64,000 bases of DNA from Deltaproteobacteria bacterium. Its GTDB lineage: Bacteria > Desulfobacterota > Desulfobulbia > Desulfobulbales > Desulfocapsaceae. Positions 4,478 through 60,709 of the stretch are shown one piece after another (position 1 is the stretch's first letter; every line of letters begins with the position of its first letter). The DNA lies in the NCBI GenBank assembly GCA_026388715.1, contig JAPLJF010000033.1:62001-126000 (forward strand), in the 5' to 3' direction. Both the position numbers and the translations under genes were made by a program. The notes beneath the pieces are model-generated. The model worked only from the letters and a program-made list of their open reading frames with translations. It did no database searches and was not told where the DNA came from.

Positions 4478-7400
4478 ATGCAAGTGACGAGACGGCAGTT
4501 CTGTAAAATTTGCGCCGCCGGGCTGGGCGGTTCCAGCCTGGTTATGATGGGCTATTCGCCCGGCGAGGTCCTGGCCCAGACGAACAGCTTCAAACTGACA
4601 CGGGCCACCGAAACGCGCAGCACCTGTCCGTATTGCGCGGTGAGCTGCGGTCTTTTGATCTACAGTATGGGTGACAAGGCCAAAAACGCCAGATCAGAGA
4701 TCATCCATATCGAGGGCGACCCGGACAATCCGGTCAACCGCGGCACGCTCTGCCCGAAAGGAGCCGGCCTGCTCGATATGATCCAGAGCCCGGACCGGCT
4801 CAACTATCCGGAAGTGCGCGAACCCGGCTCCAATGCATGGAAACGTATTTCCTGGGACGAGGCATTCACCCGCATCGCCGGACACATGAAGGCCGACCGC
4901 GACACAAATTTCGTCACTGAAAACAGCGCCGGTCTGAAGGTCAACCGCTGGCCCACCTTCGGCTTCCTGGCCAGCTCCTCCTCGCTCAACGAGGTCGGCT
5001 ATATCTCGCACAAGGTGCTGCGCGGCTTAGGCGTTGTCACCATCGATACCCAGGCCCGCATCTGACACTCTCCCACGGTGGCCAGTTTGGCCCCCTCTTT
5101 TGGACGAGGCGCGATGACGAACCATTGGGTCGATATCAAGAACGCCGATCTGATTCTCATTATGGGCGGCAACGCCGCCGAAGCCCATCCCTGCGGCTTC
5201 AAGTGGGTCACCGAAGCAAAGGCGCACCGCAAGGCCAAACTGGTCGTGGTGGATCCCCGTTTCACCCGCTCGGCTGCTGTGGCCGATTATTATGCACCCC
5301 TCCGCTCAGGCACCGATATCGCCTTTCTGGGCGGGGTGATCAACTATCTCGTGACCCATGACAAGATCCTGCACGAATATGTAAAACCCTATACCAACGC
5401 GACCTATCTCGTTAATCCGAAGTTCTCGTTCGCGGACGGGATGTTTTCCGGCTATGACGCGGAGCACCGCCGATACGATACCGAAACCTGGTCGTATCAA
5501 CTGGACGCCGACGGCTATGCCAAAATTGATGAAACCATGCAGGATCCCAACTGCGTCTTTCAACTCATGAAGAAGCATTTCTCGCGCTACACCCCGGAGA
5601 TGGTGAGCCGGATCACCGGTACTCCCGAGAAACAGTTTCTGACGATCTGCGAAATGATCGCCACCACGGCGGTGCCCGACCGGACGATGACAAGTTTGTA
5701 TGCCCTGGGCTGGACCCAGCACTCGGTGGGTTCGGAGAACATCCGAAGTATGGCCATGATCCAGCTCCTGCTCGGCAATATCGGCGTGGCCGGCGGCGGC
5801 ATCAATGCCTTGCGCGGTCACTCCAATGTCCAGGGGATCACTGATATGTGCCTGTTCGGCGAAAAGCTGCCGGGCTACATGACCCTGCCCACCGAAAAGG
5901 ATCCAACCTACGGGGATTACGTTAAGAAGTGGACTCCGAAACCCCTGCGCCCCAACCAGGTGAATTACTGGAGCAATTATCCCAAGTTTTTTGTCAGCCT
6001 GATGAAGGCCTGGTATGGCAAGGCCGCGACCAAGGAAAACGATTTCGGGTTTGACTGGCTGCCCAAAATCGAAGGACCGTCCGATGCCCTGGCGATTTTT
6101 GAGCGCATGTACCAGGGGCAAATCACCGGTTTCTTCTGCCAGGGCTATAACCCCCTCGCCGCCGTGGCCAACAAGAAAAAGGTCGGTATAGCGCTTGCCA
6201 GGTTGAAATATCTGGTGGTAATCGACCCGCTCGCCACAGAAACCTCCGAGTTCTGGAAAAATCACGGCGTGCTGAACGATGTCGACCCCGCCGCGATTCA
6301 GACCGAGGTCTTTCGTCTGCCCTCGACCTTGTTTGCCGAGGAAGAAGGATCATATACCACCTCAAGCCGGGTCATCCAGTGGCATTGGAAGGCGGCTGAC
6401 GGACCTGGCGAGTCCAAGGGAGACGTAGAGATTGTCGCCGGCATCTTCATCAAGTTGCGGAAGATGTATGCCAAGGACGGCGGCGCCTACTCCGAGCCGG
6501 TCTTGCAGCTTTCCTGGCCGTACCACATTGCGGATCAGCCCTCGTCGGAAGAACTGGCGCGCGAGATCTCCGGGCGATCGCTGGTCGGCGACGGTGAGCA
6601 GTTGGCCGGGTTCGCTCAGTTGCGCGATGACGGCTCGACTACGTGCGGCAACTGGCTCTATAGCGGCATGTGGTCTCCGGCCGGAAACCTCGCCGCCCGG
6701 CGGGACAACAGCGACCCATCCGGTCTCGGCCAGACCCTCAACTGGGGTTTTGCCTGGCCTGCCAATCGCCGCATCCTCTACAACCGCGCCTCATGCGATC
6801 TTGCGGGCCGGCCCTGGGATTCTTCACGTCTGGTCATCGAATGGAACGGCAGCAAATGGGTCGGCAACGACATTCCCGACATGCGCCCCGATGCCAAACC
6901 CGAGGAGATGATCATGCCCTTTATCATGCAGCCGGAAGGCGTAGGCCGCCTGTTTGCACTAGGCCAAATGGCGGACGGCCCATTTCCGGAACACTATGAG
7001 CCGTTCGAATCGCCGCTTACCAAAAATCCGATGCACCCCGATAATCCGGAAACCAAAAGCAATCCGGCGGTGCGGATCTTTATGGGCGACCTCGACGCCT
7101 TCGGCAAGCCGGATAAATTCCCCTATGTGGGGACCACGTACCGGCTCACCGAACATTATCACTATTGGACCAAGCACTCCAAAATCAACGCCATTCTGCA
7201 ACCGGAGCAGTTCGTCGAGATCGGTGAAGAACTGGCCAGGGAGAAAGGCATCAAGTCCGGCAGCCAGGTGACGGTGAGCAGCAACCGGGGATTCATCAAG
7301 GCCGTGGCCGTGGTGACCAAGCGGATCAAGGCCCTTGATGTGGACGGCCGCAAGGTCCACACGATCGGCATCCCGATCCATTGGGGCTTCATGGGCCTGG

Positions 7401-49575: not shown

Positions 49576-50493
49576 TTATGGAGCCTCACCCTTCTGTTTC
49601 CGGGCAAAATTCGCCGCCTCCATGCCGGCGACACAACCCTCGCCAACCGCCTTGGCCATCTGATAAGGATAGCCGGTGATATCTCCGGCACCATAGACAC
49701 CAGGGACATTGGTCTCGGCCAGTTTATTGGTTTCGATATGGGTCATGGTATCCTGATCAAGCTGGACCCCTATTTCCAGTGCCAGTTCCATGGCCCCCTT
49801 GGCCCCAAGTTCGATGAAAATGCCATCGACCATCACTTCGTTTCCGTTGTCAAGAAGGATGGATTGCACTGCTTTCTCACCCTGGATCGCCTTGACCCAG
49901 GTGCCGGACAAGAGTTCAACAGTCGAGCTTTTCAACTTTGCCAGGATATCGGTAGAGGCCACCAGTCCCTGACTTATCAGATAGACTTTGGAGGCATAGC
50001 CGGTAAGGGTCAAGGCCCCGTCAATGGCAGCGCTGGCATTACCGACGACCGCAACCGTGGCGTTCCGGTAAAAATTGGCGTCACAATCCACGCAATAGGA
50101 AACCCCGCGGCCAGCAAATTCCTGTTCACCCGGCACCTTCAGTTTTTTTCTGGCCGTGCCGGTGGCAAAGATAACCGTGCGGCTGGTGATCGTTGCCCCG
50201 CCTTCCAGTTTAAGCACAAACAAGGCCTCTTGCTGATGGATCTTCAAGACATCGTCATCCAGCAGTTCGGCGCCAAATCCCCTGACCTGAGCAATCCCCA
50301 CCTCCAGCAGTTCCTGGCCACTCTTCACCCCTTCCACACAGGCATAGTTCTCCACATGGGCAGAATAGAGCGAACTCCGCTCAATCCGTCCCAGCAACAA
50401 GACCCTGCTTTTCTTGCGAACCGCATGGATTGCGGCCTGGATCCCGGCCGGACCGGCCCCAACAATCACCACATCATAGACTAAAGGTTCCAT
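49576..50493 (-). CDS. Thioredoxin reductase-like FAD oxidoreductase
   Basis: VVIVGAGPAGIQAAIHAVRK; GVSYCVDCDANFYRN; GVYGAGDITGYPYQMAKAVGEG. Confidence 0.92.
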   Translation of the reverse strand: MEPLVYDVVIVGAGPAGIQAAIHAVRKKSRVLLLGRIERSSLYSAHVENYACVEGVKSGQELLEVGIAQVRGFGAELLDDDVLKIHQQEALFVLKLEGGATITSRTVIFATGTARKKLKVPGEQEFAGRGVSYCVDCDANFYRNATVAVVGNASAAIDGALTLTGYASKVYLISQGLVASTDILAKLKSSTVELLSGTWVKAIQGEKAVQSILLDNGNEVMVDGIFIELGAKGAMELALEIGVQLDQDTMTHIETNKLAETNVPGVYGAGDITGYPYQMAKAVGEGCVAGMEAANFARKQKGEAP

Positions 50494-50784: not shown

Positions 50785-52026
50785 ATGAATAGCAATCAGC
50801 AAAGAATCGTCATAACAGGGATCGGCCTGGCCGCGCCGGGCGCTGACAATCTCAAGGATTTTCGCGAGCAACTCCTGACCGGAACCAGCGCCATCAAAGA
50901 GATCGATCTCCGCTATTTTGGTCCGGCGGCCGCCGGGATCTGCACCTTTGACGAAACCAGATACCGTAAAAAAAAGGAAAATAAACGGGGAACACGGGCG
51001 GGCTGCCTTGGTGTCTATTGCGCCCACGAGGCCATGGCCGACGCGGCACTCGATATTGGTTACTATGACCGCTCCCGCATCGGCGTCTATGTCGGACTCA
51101 CCGAACATGGCACCGTGGAGACAGAAAACGAAATTTTCAATATCAGCCAGTATAATTATGACGTAAATTACTGGACCCACCACCACAACCCCCGAACCGT
51201 TCTCAACAACCCCCCAGGCGAGATCACCATGAGCCTGGGAATCACCGGCCCCCATTACGCCATTGGCGCTGCCTGTGCCGCCGGCAATGCCTCTCTGATT
51301 CAAGGCGTCCAGATGCTCCGCCTGGGCGAAGTGGATATGGCCCTGGCCGGTGGTATCTCTGAATCAACCGGCTCCTTTGGGATCTTCGCGAGCTTCAAGG
51401 CCCAGGGCGCACTCGGTGAGGCCGAAGACCCGCGCATGGCCTGCCGGCCTTTTGATATGGCGAGAAACGGGATTGTGGTTTCAGAAGGGGGTGCCATCTA
51501 CGTCATGGAAAGGCTGGAAAAAGCCCTTGAGCGCGGAGCCAGGATCTATGGAGAGATTGCCGGCTACTGCATCAACTCCGATGCTCGTGATTTTGTGCTT
51601 CCCTATGGCAAGAGACAGGCAGAATGCATGCAGCAGGCCCTGCATCGCGCCGGATTGCAACCTGCCGATATTGATATCATCAATACCCATGCCACCGGCA
51701 CCAGGCAGGGAGATATTGAAGAGTGCAAGGCCATCCGTCAGGTTTTCGGTGAGGCGCCGTCCACCTATATCAACAACACCAAATCCATCATTGGTCATGC
51801 CATGGGGGCCGCCGGTGTCCTTGAACTTGCCGGCAATCTGCCCTCCTTTGAGGATAACAAAGTCCATCCCACCATCAATATCAGCAACCTTGATCCGGAA
51901 TGCGCCCTGCCCAACATGGTCATCAACAAACCGGTACAAATCCCGTCCGTATCCACCATTCTCAACAACTCTTTTGGTATGGTTGGCGTCAATTCCGTTA
52001 TCATTGTCAAAAAATACAAGAAATAA
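50785..52026 (+). CDS. Beta-ketoacyl synthase (FabF-like)
   Basis: Catalytic GAACAAGNASL, NTHATGT, SIIGHAMGAAG. Confidence 0.95.
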   Translation: MNSNQQRIVITGIGLAAPGADNLKDFREQLLTGTSAIKEIDLRYFGPAAAGICTFDETRYRKKKENKRGTRAGCLGVYCAHEAMADAALDIGYYDRSRIGVYVGLTEHGTVETENEIFNISQYNYDVNYWTHHHNPRTVLNNPPGEITMSLGITGPHYAIGAACAAGNASLIQGVQMLRLGEVDMALAGGISESTGSFGIFASFKAQGALGEAEDPRMACRPFDMARNGIVVSEGGAIYVMERLEKALERGARIYGEIAGYCINSDARDFVLPYGKRQAECMQQALHRAGLQPADIDIINTHATGTRQGDIEECKAIRQVFGEAPSTYINNTKSIIGHAMGAAGVLELAGNLPSFEDNKVHPTINISNLDPECALPNMVINKPVQIPSVSTILNNSFGMVGVNSVIIVKKYKK

Positions 52027-52177
52027 ATGTGTTTTTCAAAAAATATATAAAAAAGAGTGGCAAGGTATGGTATAAAGAATGTTTTCCTTGGATAAACGCT
52101 CTCGTTTATACCGACCTATGCACAATAACATATACAAAAATCACTCTTTTTAGTGAGAGATCGAATCTGGAGCCAAC

Positions 52178-52429
52178 ATGACCCGTAACAATATTAAGGA
52201 TCTCATACTCGAGATCATCAAAGATATAGATGAAGATGCCGATTTTGCCACGCTGCAATCCGAGCTGCCGCTGCGTGACCAGCTTGACCTTGATTCTATG
52301 GATTTTCTCGATATCGTGATGGAGCTCCGCAAACGGCATAAATTGCAGATCCCTGAAGAAGATTATCCGCAACTGGCCTCCCTCGACAGCTGCGTCAACT
52401 ACCTCGAACCCATGCTTAAAAACGTCTAA
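52178..52429 (+). CDS. Acyl carrier protein
   Basis: LRDQLDLDSMDFLDIVMELRKRH, phosphopantetheine Ser in DSM context. Confidence 0.93.
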   Translation: MTRNNIKDLILEIIKDIDEDADFATLQSELPLRDQLDLDSMDFLDIVMELRKRHKLQIPEEDYPQLASLDSCVNYLEPMLKNV

Positions 52430-52431
52430 AG

Positions 52432-53817
52432 GTGCACGTCCCCCTGCTGATTATCGGCGGCGGTCTCTCGGGACTGGCCGCCGCAATTCGTTTCGCCCGT
52501 TTCAATCCAGAAGTCCTGATCCTGGAAAAACACACCCGCGTCGGTGGCCTCAACTCCTATTATTACCGCAACAACTCCCTGCTGGAGACCGGCCTCCATG
52601 CCATCACCAATTTTGCCCCGCCCCACGATAAAAATGCGCCCCTCAACCGGCTGCTCCGCCAACTGAAACTGCGGCGCAAGGACTTCACGTTTCATGAACA
52701 GATCGCCAGCGAGATCTCCTTTGTCAATCAGGAATCACTGACCTTCTCTAATAATTTTGAAATATTACACCATGAGGTAATGACCAAATTCCCCCGCAGC
52801 GCGCCGGGATTCACCCGGCTGCTGCAGGCCATCAAGGAATTTGATCCGTTCAAGGCCGCGCCCTTCCGCTCGGCCCGGACCTTTCTGGCCGCGACCCTCG
52901 ACGACCCGCTGTTAGTAGATATGCTGCTCTGCCCGCTGATGTATTACGGATCAAGTGTCGAAAACGACATGGATCTTGGCCAGTTTGTCATCATGTTTCG
53001 GGCGATCTTTCTGGAAGGGATGTTCCGGCCTGAGGGCAGCATCAAGGATTTTCTCGATATCCTGCTCAAGCAGTATCAGGGATTCGGCGGCAAAATCCGC
53101 ATGCAGGCCCCTGTGGCCCGAATCATCCTTCAGGGCAGAAAGGTGACGGGAGTGGAACTGGCAGACGGCGAGGTGATCGAGTGCGACGCCCTGCTCTCGA
53201 CCATCGGCTATGAAGAGACCCTGGCAGCTCTTGCTGTGCCGCCTGTGCCCAGGCCCAAACCCCGTCTTGGTTTTGTCGAATCCATCTTCCGGCTACCCGC
53301 CGATTGTGAGAAGGTTCTGCCCAAGGATAAAACCATTATTTTTTACAACACCAGCGATAAATTCCGATACCAGCGGCCAGAAGGGCGCGTTGATTACAGC
53401 AGTGGCGTTATCTGCTTTCCCGGGAACTTCCAGGGGCTTGACGCGAAGACATATCTTGAGGTTCGCGCTACCCATCTTGCCGATTATGCCGGTTGGAAGT
53501 CTCTTGCCGCTGACAGGCCCGCCTACCTTGCGGCCAAGAACGACACGGCCAGCCAGTCGAAAAAGACGCTCGAGAAAATCATTGGTAATTTCAGCCAACA
53601 TATTGTATATGAGGATACCTTTACCCCCCTTACCATAGAACGTTTTACCGCCAAAAAAGAAGGCGCTATTTACGGCTGTCCTGATAAGATCAAGGATGGC
53701 GACATCGGCTATGACAATCTCTTTCTTGCCGGCACCGACCAGGGCTTTTTAGGTATTGTCGGCTCCATGCTGAGTGGTGTCTCCATGGTTAACCAACATA
53801 TTCTGTCCCGACTGTGA
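52432..53817 (+). CDS. CrtI/phytoene desaturase-like FAD oxidoreductase 1 (GTG start)
   Basis: LLIIGGGLSGLAAAIRFARFNPEVLILEKHTRVGGLNSYY; C-terminal NLFLAGTDQGFLGIVGSMLSG. Confidence 0.92.
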   Translation: MHVPLLIIGGGLSGLAAAIRFARFNPEVLILEKHTRVGGLNSYYYRNNSLLETGLHAITNFAPPHDKNAPLNRLLRQLKLRRKDFTFHEQIASEISFVNQESLTFSNNFEILHHEVMTKFPRSAPGFTRLLQAIKEFDPFKAAPFRSARTFLAATLDDPLLVDMLLCPLMYYGSSVENDMDLGQFVIMFRAIFLEGMFRPEGSIKDFLDILLKQYQGFGGKIRMQAPVARIILQGRKVTGVELADGEVIECDALLSTIGYEETLAALAVPPVPRPKPRLGFVESIFRLPADCEKVLPKDKTIIFYNTSDKFRYQRPEGRVDYSSGVICFPGNFQGLDAKTYLEVRATHLADYAGWKSLAADRPAYLAAKNDTASQSKKTLEKIIGNFSQHIVYEDTFTPLTIERFTAKKEGAIYGCPDKIKDGDIGYDNLFLAGTDQGFLGIVGSMLSGVSMVNQHILSRL

Positions 53818-53821
53818 TGGC

Positions 53822-53935
53822 GTCGCGAAAAGGCCCGAAAACTGCGTTGCGTTGCATCCTTCGTCACTGCGGCGTACCTGAAAGTACGCCGCAATCCTCA
53901 GGATTTGCGCGCCTTGTCTTTTAGGTCTTTTTGTT
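53822..53935. repeat. REP-like imperfect palindrome between the two CrtI-like genes
   Basis: Core TGCGGCGTAC-ctgaaa-GTACGCCGCA (53868-53893) with flanking imperfect inverted arms. Confidence 0.7.
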
Positions 53936-53975
53936 TAACCATCCCCTTGATGACTTTTAACAATAGATTACTTCG

Positions 53976-55382
53976 ATGCCCTTTTCTTTAGACAAAGCAG
54001 CTGACAGCTACGACGTGATTGTTATCGGGTCAGGCCTGGGTGGCCTGACCACGGCCAAACGGCTTTCTTATTGCGGCCACAAGGTGCTGCTCCTTGAATT
54101 TCACCACCAGCTTGGGGGTCTTGCCACCTGGTTCAAGCGCAAAGGCCATATCTTCGACATCTCCCTGCATGGTTTTCCCTACGGCATGGTTAAGACCTGC
54201 AAAAAATACTGGACCAAAGAAATCACCGGGTCCATTGTCCAGCTCAAGAATATCGTTTTTGACAATCCGCAGTTTTCTCTGAAAACCACCTTTGACCGGG
54301 TTGATTTCACCGCCCTGTTGATCAAGAAGTTCAAGATTCCCCAGACGATTATCGATCGGTTCTTCGCCACGGTGGCAGGGATGAACTTTTACGATGACCA
54401 GACCATGACCACCCGGGAGCTGTTTGAAGAATTTTTCCCCGGCAGAACGGATGTCCATCGCCTGCTCATGGAACCCATCACTTACGCCAACGGTTCCACC
54501 CTTAACGATCCGGCCATCACCTACGGCATTGTTTTCTCCAACTTCATGAACAAGGGGGTCTTCACCTTTGAAGGCGGTACGGACAAACTCATCCAGATGA
54601 TGACCGAGGATTTGGAGCGAAACGGGGTGATGATCTGCACCAACGCAAAGGTTGACAGAATCCTTGTGGAAAAAGGGAAGGTGCGGGGTGTTGAGGTGAA
54701 CGGCAGGGTGATTACCGCCCCGGCCGTGGTCTCCAACAGCGGAATTACCAATACCATCTATAATCTGGCGGGACGGGACGCCTTCACACCGGATTTCCTG
54801 GAAAAAGCCGATGCGATCCGGGTTAACAACTCCAGTTGCCAGGTCTATATCGGGTTGAAAAAGGAAGCCGCCATTGAGGACAAGGGCGACCTCCTCTTCA
54901 CCTCCACCGCGCCTGTTTTCGACTCTTCCGAACTGCTCGACATGCACACCCGTTCCAAGACCTTCTCGGTCTATTACCCGAAGACACGTCCTGGCCACGA
55001 TCGCCATACCATTGTCGCCTCCATGAACAGCCGTTATGATGACTGGAACAGCCTCACCCCAGCCGCCTATGAAACCGAGAAACAGGCCCTCATCGAGCGG
55101 ACCCTGGTGGACCTGAATCGTTACTTTCCCGGGGTCAAGGAAAAAATTGACTGGCTGGAGGCGGCAACACCCAAAACCTTTAACCGCTACACCCTGCATA
55201 CCCGCGGCACCTCCTTCGGCACCAAATTTGAGGGGCTGGCCGTCTCCCGTTCCTTCTTCAAAGAGGTTCCCGGGCTCTTTCATGTCGGATCAGTGGGGAT
55301 CATCATGTCCGGCTGGCTCGGGGCAATCAATTACGGGGTCATCGTCGCCAATGATGTTGACGGCTATATCCACAGTGTGTAA
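53976..55382 (+). CDS. CrtI/phytoene desaturase-like FAD oxidoreductase 2
   Basis: [40 protein letters not shown]. Confidence 0.92.
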
Positions 55383-55391
55383 TCAGACAAA

Positions 55392-56132
55392 ATGACCACC
55401 TTTATTGAGCAGAAAGTTGTTGTCACTGGGGCCAGCCGGGGCTTGGGCCGGGCCATCACCCTGGCCTTCCTCCGGCAGGGCGCGACGGTCATCGGCATCT
55501 ATGGCAGCAACAGTGAAGCGGCCAGGGCCTTCGCCCATGAATGCGGCCAGTTTGGCGACAGGTTGCAACTGCACCAGTGCAATGTCGCCGACAGCAAACA
55601 GGTAGAGGCGTTCTTTAGGCAGGTGGAAGAGGAGTTTGATGCCATTGATGTCCTGATCAATAATGCCGGCATCCGCCGCGATGGGCTCCTGGCCCTTATG
55701 GACAGCAAGGACTGGCAACAGGTCATTGACGTCAACCTCACCGGCACCTTTAATATGTCCAAACAGGCGGTACTTCTGATGATGAAGCAGAAATATGGCC
55801 GGATCATCAATATCACCTCACCGGTCGCCCATCTCGGCTTTGCCGGTCAAGCCAACTACGCGGCCTCCAAAGCGGGACAGATCGGCATGACCCGAAGCCT
55901 GGCCAGAGAAACCGCCCGCAAGAAGATCACCGTCAACTGTGTTTCTCCCGGTTTTATCGCCACCGATCTCCTTGACGATCTGAGCGCCGAGCAACTGGAA
56001 GCCCACAAAAAGCTGGTGCCCATGCGCCGTTTTGGCACTGCCGAAGAAGTGGCCAATGCGGTGCTGTTTCTTGCCGGCCGGCAGGCCTCCTACATTACCG
56101 GTGCGGTGCTGGATGTCAACGGAGGATTATAA
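55392..56132 (+). CDS. 3-oxoacyl-ACP reductase (FabG-like SDR)
   Basis: VVVTGASRGLGRAITLAFLRQGA; INNAGIRRDGLL; YAASKAGQIGMTRSLARE; TGAVLDVNGGL. Confidence 0.95.
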   Translation: MTTFIEQKVVVTGASRGLGRAITLAFLRQGATVIGIYGSNSEAARAFAHECGQFGDRLQLHQCNVADSKQVEAFFRQVEEEFDAIDVLINNAGIRRDGLLALMDSKDWQQVIDVNLTGTFNMSKQAVLLMMKQKYGRIINITSPVAHLGFAGQANYAASKAGQIGMTRSLARETARKKITVNCVSPGFIATDLLDDLSAEQLEAHKKLVPMRRFGTAEEVANAVLFLAGRQASYITGAVLDVNGGL

Positions 56133-56138
56133 TTCACT

Positions 56139-56585
56139 ATGACCCTTGACCCATTCATTACCGCCCTGATCCCGCACCGGCCGCCCTTCCTCTGGATTGA
56201 CAGGATTGTCAGTTATGAGGAGGGAACCATGGTTACGGAAAAAACCATCCCGGAAGACCTTGATATTTTCAAAGGGCATTATCCTGAACACCCGATCCTG
56301 CCGGGGGTGATCCTCTGCGAGGCCCTGTTTCAGACCGGTGCCCTGCTGATTGCCAGGATGGTACAGGATGAGCAAAAAACACAACACGGCTTTCCTGTCC
56401 TCACCCGGATTGGCGGAGCCCGCTTCAAACGTCCAGTTGGGCCGGGCAGCATCATCCAAATGCAGGTAAATCTGAGGGAAAAAGTTGCCGGTGCCTGGTT
56501 CCTGAAAGGAATCCTGCGCGTCAAAGAAAAAATCGCCGTTCAGGTTGATTTTTCCTGCACCTTGGTCTCTGACCTGAAGCCATGA
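56139..56585 (+). CDS. 3-hydroxyacyl-ACP dehydratase (FabZ-like hotdog)
   Basis: LIPHRPPFLWIDRI; FKGHYPEHPILPGVILCEALFQTGALL. Confidence 0.93.
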   Translation: MTLDPFITALIPHRPPFLWIDRIVSYEEGTMVTEKTIPEDLDIFKGHYPEHPILPGVILCEALFQTGALLIARMVQDEQKTQHGFPVLTRIGGARFKRPVGPGSIIQMQVNLREKVAGAWFLKGILRVKEKIAVQVDFSCTLVSDLKP

Positions 56586-56794
56586 ACGATTCCGCCACAC
56601 CATCAACAGACTTTAACGACAAGGAACCGACCTTTCTCTGCCTCTACTGTGATCAAAAAAAAGTGCGCCTGCAGGGACGCTGACACCAAGCCAAGGCCGT
56701 CTGCACGGGGTGTGGAATGATCACTGCAATCGATGAATATAAAGACCAGTTAGAAGCGCGGCAGGAAAAATTATGTATTGAAGCCAGCAGTTGA
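56582..56794 (+). CDS. Small two-CxxC zinc-ribbon-like ORF with in-frame TGA (candidate selenoprotein or nonsense allele)
   Basis: ATGA overlap with upstream stop; MNDSATPSTDFNDKEPTFLCLYCDQKKVRLQGR[TGA 56681-56683]HQAKAVCTGCGMITAIDEYKDQLEARQEKLCIEASS*. Confidence 0.6.
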
Positions 56795-56980: not shown

Positions 56981-57682
<702 letters not shown>

Positions 57683-57716
57683 AGACACATCATACTTTTT
57701 ACTGGACACGAATAAC

Positions 57717-58160
57717 ATGGGAATGGGATCAAGCAGGGGCAATGGCCCGAGAGGGTTGGTTGCTGATATTAACGTAACGCCCCTGGTGGATGTTATGCTG
57801 GTGCTGCTCATCATCTTCATGGTGACGGCCCCGATGATGACCCAGGGACTTGATGTGGACTTACCGGCAACCACAGCAAATTCACTGAGCCAGAAAGAAA
57901 CTCCCTTTGTGGTGAGCATCAGGAAAGAGGGCGAGGTTTTTTTGGACAAGACTTCTCTTGGTAAGGGCGAAACCAGCCAGGCGATGTTACTGGAGCGACT
58001 GAAAAAAATAATAGATGAAAAAGGCAAGGAGGAACTCATCTTTCTCTCGGCTGACAAAGATGTCGCCTATGGAGTGGTTGCAGTAACCATGGCTAACATT
58101 AAAGCAGCAGGATTTGCCAAGGTGGGAATGATGACCAAACCAATTGAAGAAAAGCGGTAA
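57717..58160 (+). CDS. tolR: TolR/ExbD family protein
   Basis: DINVTPLVDVMLVLLIIFMVTAPMMTQGLDVDLP. Confidence 0.94.
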   Translation: MGMGSSRGNGPRGLVADINVTPLVDVMLVLLIIFMVTAPMMTQGLDVDLPATTANSLSQKETPFVVSIRKEGEVFLDKTSLGKGETSQAMLLERLKKIIDEKGKEELIFLSADKDVAYGVVAVTMANIKAAGFAKVGMMTKPIEEKR

Positions 58161-59235
58161 CGTGTCGCAGAAACATAAATCCCCACATATCCTGCCCGGC
58201 GAATGGAAGCTCCCTCTCAATCTGGCAATCGGCCTCCATCTTCTCGTCCTGCTGTCCGCCATATTTCTGCCAAAATTTCTGCAGCAACGTCCCATCCTGC
58301 CAGAAATCACCACCATTGATCTGATGAGTACCGCTGAACCTGCGGGAAAAAAAGAACCTGCGGCCCATCCTGCTGCCATAAAAGCGGCAAAACAACCGGT
58401 AAAAAAAGAGGTAAAAGAAGAGGTAAAAGAAGAGGTCGTACCGCCGAAACCTGCTGAAATAATTAAATCAGAAGTTGCAAAAAAGATTCCTCCTCCCGTA
58501 GAAAAACCCATTCCCGTTCCGGAGCCAACAGTCGCGCCTGAACCCGTAGCGAAGCCGGCACCAGCCGAGGCGATCTCCATCAAGCCATCAAAACAAAAAC
58601 AGAAAAAAGAGATCAAGGAGATCCCTGACACCCGTGCTGAAGATGCCAAAATCCGCAAAGAAGAGTTGAAAAACATTACCCAGAAGCTCCAGGAAGATGC
58701 GAAAAAAGAAAGCACCGCTCAGGAGACCATAAAACGGCAGCGGCAACAGGCTGCGGCCCGTGAGGAGTCCCGACGCGCGGAACAGGAAGCCAAACGCGCG
58801 GAACAGGAGGCCAAACGCGCGGAGCTGGAGGCCAGAATGGCGGCGGCCGACGCCAAGGACGCCCTGCGTGATCAGATTCGGACCCCAAGCGGCGGCGGCA
58901 GCAGTGCCGGCGCATCTCCGGCTGCATCCTCGCAAAGCATGGGAATACTGAATCAACAGTATTATGCCACCATCATGGCCCATATTCAACAGCACTGGCA
59001 ACCACCCGACGTCAAGACCTGGGCGCCCAATCTTCTCGCCATAGTCAGCATTACTATTGCCAGTGACGGGCAGATCGTCAGTCAAGACTTTGAACAGGAA
59101 TCAGGGGATAGACTTTTTGATCAGTTTGTCCTCAAGACCCTGGATGCCTCAAATCCACTGCCCCCGCCGCCAGCAGCCTTGCAAAAACAGCGTCTGGAAG
59201 TGGGCCTCCGTTTCAAGCCAAGCGGAATTCAGTGA
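58144..59235 (+). CDS. tolA: TolA-like periplasmic energy transducer
   Basis: N-terminal TM; Lys/Ala/Glu-rich coiled-coil; C-terminal TonB-like YYATIMAHIQQHWQPP. Confidence 0.85.
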   Translation: MKKSGNVSQKHKSPHILPGEWKLPLNLAIGLHLLVLLSAIFLPKFLQQRPILPEITTIDLMSTAEPAGKKEPAAHPAAIKAAKQPVKKEVKEEVKEEVVPPKPAEIIKSEVAKKIPPPVEKPIPVPEPTVAPEPVAKPAPAEAISIKPSKQKQKKEIKEIPDTRAEDAKIRKEELKNITQKLQEDAKKESTAQETIKRQRQQAAAREESRRAEQEAKRAEQEAKRAELEARMAAADAKDALRDQIRTPSGGGSSAGASPAASSQSMGILNQQYYATIMAHIQQHWQPPDVKTWAPNLLAIVSITIASDGQIVSQDFEQESGDRLFDQFVLKTLDASNPLPPPPAALQKQRLEVGLRFKPSGIQ

Positions 59236-59265
59236 TTTTTAAATCCATCAGTGGTACACTCTTTG

Positions 59266-59312
59266 GGAATCGTAACGAAATAACTTTTTTCTGATCATTT
59301 CATTACGGTTCC
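59266..59312. repeat. Inverted repeat related to the GGCCGTAACGAAAT family
   Basis: GGAATCGTAACGAAAT...ATTTCATTACGGTTCC. Confidence 0.55.
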
Positions 59313-59410
59313 TTATACCGTTTTTGCCATTCAGATGATTACGTTATTTGCTTAGAACGACATGGATATTAGAACCCTTACCTAGTTTCCTTTTACCCCC
59401 TTCAACGCAT

Positions 59411-60709
59411 ATGAAAACGATACGCTCTACAGTTACGCTCCTCTTTGGTATCCTCCTGCTCCTGGGCAGTACCACCCTTTCCGCGCATGCAGAGGGGAAG
59501 GTCTATCTCGACATCACCGCTTCGGGAACACGCAAGATCAACATAGCCGTTCCCTCGTTTACCAACACGGCGCAGCCTGGTGATGCACAGGGCCCTGGCC
59601 GCGAGATGGCCACCATCCTTGAAAAAGCACTGGAATTCCATGGGATCATTTCCATCATCCCCCCTCAGAACTACTCTGGTTCCACATCGCCTGACTGGAA
59701 GCAACTTGGCGCTGACTATGCTATCCTTGGCAGTTACTCCATGTCACCTGCAGGAATCAATTATGAAATGCGCCTTTTAGATACAGAAAAAGGTGATATG
59801 ATCCTCGGTAAAAAATATACAGGAACTATAGAGCAGAAGCAGGAAATACTCTTTAAATTCTGTGACAATGTCATCAAGGAACTCACTGGCGAACCAGGTA
59901 TTGCCTCCAGCCAGATCGCCTTTATTTCTGACAGCACTGGCGCCAAAGAGGCCTACCTGACAAACATCCTGGGCGACAAGACAAGACAAATCACCCGCCA
60001 TCGCAACCTGGTGATCTCTCCCCGTTTTACCCCTGATGGACAGAATCTCAGCTATACCTCCTATCATAAGGGCAATCAGAACCTCTATATCACCAACCTC
60101 AACCAGAGCACCTCGACCCAGGCCCTCTCAAGAAGAAAAGGGATGAATCTGGCTCCCGCCTGGTCGCCGGATGGGCAAAAAATGGTCTTGACCTTGAGCA
60201 AGGACGGAAATCCTGATCTCTATCTTCTTGACCGCCAAGGGAATGTTCTGGAACAACTGACCGCACGTACAGGAATCAATGTCTCGGCAGCCTGGTCACC
60301 TGACGGAAGACGAATCGCCTTTGTCTCTGACCGTAGTGGAAAGCCACAAATCTATCTCATGGACCTCAACAGTAAAAACGTTCAGAGACTTACCTTTCAG
60401 GGGACAGAAAATGCCGAACCCTCCTGGTCTCCCAAAGGGGATCTGCTGGCATATTCCAGCCTGACGAATGGTTCATACCAGATTTGCACCATCAATCCGG
60501 AAGTAGGGGCTAAGCCCGTTCAGGTTACAAAAGACTCTGGTCATCACGAGTCACCGGACTGGTCTCCTGACGGCAAACAACTGATCTTCGCAAAACGGGA
60601 AGGAGGCAGTCAGAAAATTTACGCCATTCTGAAAAACGGCACCTATCAGCGGCAACTTTTCTCGTTAAAAGGCAACCAAACATATCCCCGTTGGTCCTCT
60701 AAAAAATAA
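59411..60709 (+). CDS. tolB: Tol-Pal system protein TolB
   Basis: Repeated APAWSPDGQKMVLT / AAWSPDGRRIAFVSDRSGKPQIYLMDL / DWSPDGKQLIF propeller motifs. Confidence 0.95.
   Translation: MKTIRSTVTLLFGILLLLGSTTLSAHAEGKVYLDITASGTRKINIAVPSFTNTAQPGDAQGPGREMATILEKALEFHGIISIIPPQNYSGSTSPDWKQLGADYAILGSYSMSPAGINYEMRLLDTEKGDMILGKKYTGTIEQKQEILFKFCDNVIKELTGEPGIASSQIAFISDSTGAKEAYLTNILGDKTRQITRHRNLVISPRFTPDGQNLSYTSYHKGNQNLYITNLNQSTSTQALSRRKGMNLAPAWSPDGQKMVLTLSKDGNPDLYLLDRQGNVLEQLTARTGINVSAAWSPDGRRIAFVSDRSGKPQIYLMDLNSKNVQRLTFQGTENAEPSWSPKGDLLAYSSLTNGSYQICTINPEVGAKPVQVTKDSGHHESPDWSPDGKQLIFAKREGGSQKIYAILKNGTYQRQLFSLKGNQTYPRWSSKK

Follow-up and report, generated by a model that had tools for sequence, protein, structure and literature searches.

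Small selenoproteins with two CxxC motifs and selenocysteine (Sec) between them are described by the model NF041197 ('dual CXXC motif small (seleno)protein', CxxC_Se_CxxC). A 2026 review places two families under NF041197, OS_HP3 with the motif RxU and 'Hypothetical protein DW' with the motif GxU (PMC13188914). The review credits OS_HP3 to Zhang and Gladyshev 2007. DW was predicted by deep-Sep in 2025, with two reported hosts, D. widdelii PP31 and Desulfosarcina sp. BuS5 (PMC12013277). Here we analyze a gene at positions 56582–56794 of the window, by which we mean the whole 64,000-nucleotide stretch of DNA under analysis. A first-pass annotation had presented this gene as an undescribed selenoprotein. 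The two sources show that its family had already been predicted as DW (PMC12013277) and listed under NF041197 with the GxU motif (PMC13188914).

A reading frame that spans an in-frame TGA

The selenoprotein gene (56582–56794, forward strand) encodes 70 residues and ends at the TGA at 56792–56794. Its frame contains only one in-frame TGA, codon 34 (56681–56683, forward strand), which is the predicted Sec codon of a G-R-U motif. The read-through product is MNDSATPSTDFNDKEPTFLCLYCDQKKVRLQGRUHQAKAVCTGCGMITAIDEYKDQLEARQEKLCIEASS, and its layout across the TGA is CxxC-x10-Sec-x6-CxxC. The first CxxC knuckle (C20 and C23; 56639–56650, forward strand) and the second (C41 and C44; 56702–56713, forward strand) are both invariant in alignment A2, and a zinc-ribbon model predicts the cysteines of the first as zinc ligands. 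The start of the gene overlaps, as ATGA, the stop codon of a FabZ/FabA-like 3-hydroxyacyl-ACP dehydratase gene (56139–56585, forward strand; Pfam FabA, 9.4e-19). The 70-codon frame, both CxxC pairs, the TGA, and the overlap with the dehydratase stop were exactly as first annotated.

Phylum-wide conservation of the TGA

The read-through peptide was compared with 97 related genomes and matched 38 of them at E ≤ 0.1. Among the strong hits, nearly all contained exactly one TGA, in the same column. A subfamily model built from 24 rows was run on 396 phylum genomes at E ≤ 0.001 and matched in 57, and again the strong matches nearly all had one TGA. Named genomes were scanned with a DNA pattern that returned at least 80 loci, with the subfamily model as confirmation. 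The model confirmed 71 of the 80 loci listed; the nine unconfirmed loci include Pseudomonas, Dietzia, and Bacteroides. Confirmed loci belong to Desulfobacterota/Thermodesulfobacteriota wherever the title gives such a lineage, and the listed hosts include Desulfobulbaceae, Desulfosarcina, Desulfacinum, Thermodesulfobacterium, Thermodesulfatator, and Desulfothermus. The TGA thus falls at one column in 69 whole-genome copies (the window copy included) and in at least 71 loci of named public genomes. The frame and its TGA are spread through many families of Desulfobacterota/Thermodesulfobacteriota, and the TGA column is constant across the genus, the family, the order, and the phylum.

Both collections were pooled into a set of 140 listed sequences, in which some are counted twice and the coverage of named genomes is at least that given. 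The residue two before Sec is G in 140/140 of these sequences, and the residue directly before Sec is R in 111/140. A Cys beyond the last knuckle is found in 114/140, so a resolving Cys is not universal.

The claim that coding continues beyond the TGA was borne out, with both flanks conserved in relatives from many families, far beyond chance. Purifying selection within the genus is alike on the two sides, with pN/pS values of 0.37 before the TGA and 0.41 after it. These data were weighed against the possibility that the TGA is a real stop. The gene would then yield only an N-terminal peptide of 33 residues, and the frame beyond the TGA would reflect chance or a second start. TGA does ordinarily end translation, but the frame across it is kept in all relatives and there is no indel in the six residues that follow. 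The invariant G two before Sec, the selection on the C-terminal part, the replacement by Cys in one lineage, and the presence of a SECIS hairpin also argue against termination, and no conserved start codon was seen after the TGA in the alignment. A real stop is very improbable.

The homologue comparison suggested in the first-pass annotation found Sec (TGA) conserved at this position, Cys in one genus, and Arg in a single decayed copy. The Cys copies (QGKCDHSKVVCKSC in L111 and L112) come from two genomes of that genus, G216 and G556. They are nested within the Sec clade in a 97-row tree, and the Cys state is therefore derived. The Arg copy bears on the alternative raised at the outset, that a CGA (Arg) to TGA nonsense mutation has made a pseudogene of an ordinary zinc-ribbon protein. 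The two codons differ by one base, and genome G056 has a homologue with CGA at the Sec column (L115, G056:C82:22981-23106). However, this sole Arg copy is itself decaying, with a disrupted tail and a 6-bp relic of the SECIS hairpin, which is the reverse of the proposed direction. Genome G048 of the same genus retains the TGA (L016). The intact non-TGA homologues of the present clade have Cys, and the TGA is conserved phylum-wide together with both of its flanks. Its conservation in distant families refutes the nonsense mutation, to which we give a negligible probability. A second decayed copy, L015 (G003:C8:39905-40097), has its frame split in two. L115 and L015 appear to be genes lost recently in a lineage that uses selenium, unless their decay stems from assembly errors.

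A SECIS-type hairpin follows the TGA

A SECIS-type hairpin is located at 56700–56716 on the forward strand. It has a 7-bp stem (UCUGCAC/GUGUGGA) and the loop GGG at 56707–56709. The hairpin begins 16 nt downstream of the TGA and its G-rich loop 23 nt downstream; the codons of the second CxxC knuckle overlap it. The bSECIS geometry model (PMC13188914) has a loop of 3–9 nt, a stem of 4–16 bp, and a G in the first two loop positions, 16–37 nt after the UGA. The window hairpin fits this geometry (loop GGG, 7 bp, spacing 23), and a geometry scan located a hairpin at the same place in most family members. In the main class the loop is spaced 23 nt after the UGA, for example UCUGCAC-GGA-GUGCGGA, and in a second class the spacing is 17 (GGUAAGGUGUCUUACC). 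Another stem-loop had been suggested in the first-pass annotation, CCGT-ctgc-ACGG at 56697–56708. The string is present, but it is not the conserved hairpin, which is the one at 56700–56716. It overlaps that hairpin, is not kept in relatives (for example gccaTCTGCACGG in L004), and was rejected as the SECIS.

The stem was compared with synonymous-codon shuffles. Sixty-one of the 68 Sec copies have a stem of at least 6 bp, compared to a shuffle mean of 17.6 and maximum of 30; the family sequences share kinship, so these shuffle counts are not probabilities. Within the genus, stem length also exceeds the shuffles (12/13, shuffle maximum 8), whereas hairpin energy does not. The loop-closing pair covaries (CG 24, GC 8, AU 5, GU 2, and UA 1). 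Among all TGAs of the window, only 3.5% are followed by such a stem. The two Cys copies of the present subfamily, L111 and L112, have stems of 2 and 4 bp. In the sister family OS_HP3, whose proteins share this layout and which serves as the best control, the stem reaches 6 bp in 10/14 Sec copies (mean 6.9) and in 0/31 Cys copies (mean 2.7).

The SECIS scan downstream of the TGA that the first-pass annotation called for thus recovered the geometry and fell short in energy. The best hairpin of the window is −7.2 kcal/mol, and the bSECIS energy threshold is −7.5 kcal/mol, which is a threshold of the search model and not of function. The threshold is passed by 60/69 family members; a 17-mer in L006 that is identical to the window hairpin gives −6.3 kcal/mol. 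The Sec codon noted earlier in fdnG is a real FdnG-type formate dehydrogenase Sec site (window position 5063), and the same strict hairpin search finds no more than 5 bp there. The energy miss of the window hairpin is not telling for this reason. An Rfam search across the 64-kb window gave no match at gathering thresholds. The comparative data show selection on a putative bacterial SECIS hairpin after the UGA at 56681–56683, and they show this UGA to be a predicted Sec codon that is decoded rather than terminal.

The genome encodes the selenocysteine machinery

Sec decoding had been expected in this genome, and all four components were found. The genome has selA (614 bits), selB (392 bits), a tRNA-Sec gene (selC; anticodon UCA, 70.6 bits), and selD (377 bits; G000:C25:161437-162375, L276). 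The selD gene contains one in-frame TGA, and selenophosphate synthetase is therefore probably a selenoprotein itself. The presence of tRNA-Sec was considered as a predictor of the family and discarded as uninformative because 361/396 phylum genomes pass the cut-off. By analogy with known Sec decoding in bacteria, SelB with Sec-tRNA(UCA) would bind the hairpin and insert Sec at residue 34. As judged from sequence, 56582–56794 is almost certainly a Sec-decoded gene.

A second, divergent tRNA-Sec-like gene was observed in the same genome (G000:C4:19021-19119, reverse strand; L275:1501-1599, reverse strand). It scores 58.5 bits with Rfam, has the anticodon loop CUUCAAA, and has no ARAGORN call. 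It coexists with the normal selC (70.6 bits). The divergent gene is found in 7/17 genus genomes, the window's included, at 89–100% identity, and is absent from the other 41 relatives searched.

The gene is very probably an orthologue of DW

The genome of D. widdelii PP31 has exactly two TGA-bearing members. The first is of the OS_HP3 type (63.3 bits) and has QSU at the Sec position (...KQSURSV...CDRL). The second has GRU (36.4 bits), belongs to the present subfamily, and is the sole GxU copy found there. Its sequence, MPNLKCIFCGGRAKLRGRUANAKVACRDCGMETGPDEYRQQIEDWKETVC, scores 79.7 bits with the subfamily model. The window gene is assigned to DW because the only GxU copy of PP31 fits the present subfamily. 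The two proteins share the GxU motif and one subfamily; the window copy is ~40% identical and is longer by one residue in the stretch from the first CxxC to Sec. Host, motif, and domain label together identify the window gene very probably as DW. Taken whole, the best explanation is a real selenoprotein orthologous to 'hypothetical protein DW', and we hold it with high confidence.

The window protein shares with NF041197 the layout of two CxxC motifs with Sec between them, and it matches that model with an E-value of 1.2e-6. Its score of 28.6 bits falls short of the curated cut-off, which is 40 bits. Each of the 66 aligned members has a match to NF041197, 24 of them at an E-value roughly equivalent to the cut-off. 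OS_HP3, the core of NF041197, is the sister family. It has Sec at the same place between the two CxxC pairs, and its Sec copies have mostly the same SECIS position as the present subfamily. OS_HP3 differs in having R two before Sec and a CDRL or IIYD end, whereas the window protein has G two before Sec and another C terminus. The RxU and GxU types form separate clades in the 97-row tree with support of 100/98; the inner forks of this tree are uncertain because there are few alignment columns. The window protein lies outside the RxU clade and has neither the CDRL nor the IIYD C terminus.

The window's genome also carries a canonical NF041197/OS_HP3 member with Cys for Sec (G000:C36:26751-26909). 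In this order the OS_HP3 family is of the Cys type and has a nearly invariant IIYD end, and elsewhere in the phylum most copies are of the Sec type with a CDRL-like end. The Sec/Cys switch in OS_HP3 is accompanied by a matching SECIS difference.

Gene neighborhood

The dehydratase gene is preceded by a gene for a FabG-like 3-oxoacyl-ACP reductase (55392–56132, forward strand). The rest of the upstream cluster is FabF, ACP, and two CrtI-like genes (50785–55382, forward strand), and TolQ-TolR-TolA-TolB lies downstream (56981–60709, forward strand). The start/stop overlap is ATGA, or GTGA in two, in most relatives with this gene context, and translation would probably start by ribosomes terminating on the upstream dehydratase gene. 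A gene for a thioredoxin-reductase-like flavoprotein (Pyr_redox_2, 6.4e-36) was also observed at 49576–50493 of the window on the reverse strand, just upstream of the FabF/CrtI cluster.

This context would suit a protein that serves the FabF/CrtI/FabG/FabZ acyl-lipid cluster in an accessory role, for instance as redox partner to the CrtI-like desaturases. The order CrtI-FabG-FabZ-[selenoprotein]-TolQR, mostly with the start/stop overlap, is conserved in the genus members examined, in four other family genomes, and in one genome of another family (L021). However, the gene adjoins unrelated CobD, TopA, FAD oxidoreductase, KptA, FapA, or NrfD genes in most relatives. A lipid-cluster role is quite unlikely because the neighbors, that one genome apart, differ outside the family. 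The search for a functional partner in the neighborhood was set aside, the context being conserved only within the family and one other genome. The function is most likely general and not specific to the neighboring acyl-lipid cluster.

A predicted zinc ribbon with Sec on a turn

The AlphaFold model (pLDDT 77, pTM 0.50) has strands at residues 27–31 and 38–41, Sec34 in the turn, and a C-terminal helix at residues 50–69. The modeled fold is one of zinc-ribbon-like hairpins plus a C-terminal helix, with the selenol on a hairpin turn. C20, C23, C41, and C44 would hold one zinc in the ribbon. Sec34 would sit on the inter-strand turn, with one knuckle 11 residues before it and the other 7 residues after it, and this position suggests an exposed selenol that is not a zinc ligand. 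A profile search of solved structures gave no significant match (best E 0.061), and neither did Foldseek (best E 0.15). The fold and profile searches returned insignificant zinc-ribbon matches only, to ZifS, Elf1, RNA-polymerase subunits, and Lar. Lar (PF14354), LysW, Elf1, and ZifS share with the present family the layout CxxCGGxA...CxxCG, with weak profile or fold matches. The gathering score of PF14354 is 28.6 bits; the relatives shown score 15.5–19.4 bits, none passing, and the window protein has no match to it.

These matches are what would be expected of a zinc ribbon that binds nucleic acid or RNA polymerase, with Sec as a redox switch controlling the binding, since the nearest folds and weak profiles are Elf1, RNA-polymerase zinc ribbons, ZifS, eS27, and Lar. 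All of them fall below significance or curated cut-offs, however, and reflect the common zinc-ribbon fold. We regard redox-switched binding of nucleic acid or RNA polymerase as unlikely. Sec34 could instead be a ligand for zinc, mercury, or another soft metal and not a redox nucleophile, in which case the protein would sense or buffer metal. The presence of Sec and four invariant Cys within 70 residues is consistent with metal binding, and one alignment member matches the NCBIfam model 'metal-binding double selenoprotein MbdU'. That match is weak (E 0.0055), the modeled secondary structure places Sec on a hairpin turn away from the knuckles, and there are no metal-transport genes among the annotated neighbors. 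A metal-ligand role is somewhat unlikely.

The role that we tentatively consider the most likely is that of a small cytoplasmic thiol/selenol redox protein, with metal binding and redox-switched binding of nucleic acid or polymerase as live competitors. The Sec protein would react with peroxide, persulfide, or disulfide and would be re-reduced by a cysteine or an external thiol. A more speculative reading, to which we give only a small chance, is that DW and OS_HP3 are paralogues that diverged long ago, frequently occur together in a genome, and derive from a zinc ribbon bearing a selenol at the hairpin turn. They might form a novel redox switch, such as a peroxide or persulfide sensor in sulfate reducers. 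In DW, Sec is the usual state, and Cys is rare and derived.

Significance

An apparent pseudogene is shown by these comparisons to be a conserved selenoprotein. What is new here is the evidence for the SECIS, the paralogy with OS_HP3, the finding that Cys is the derived state, and the spread through the phylum. DW, until now a 2025 prediction for two strains only, can be given a SECIS with good support, a counterpart with Cys, a sister family that has a name, and a range across the phylum. The product is easy to make and test because it has 70 residues with one Sec. Finding what Sec does on a zinc ribbon would be new chemistry.
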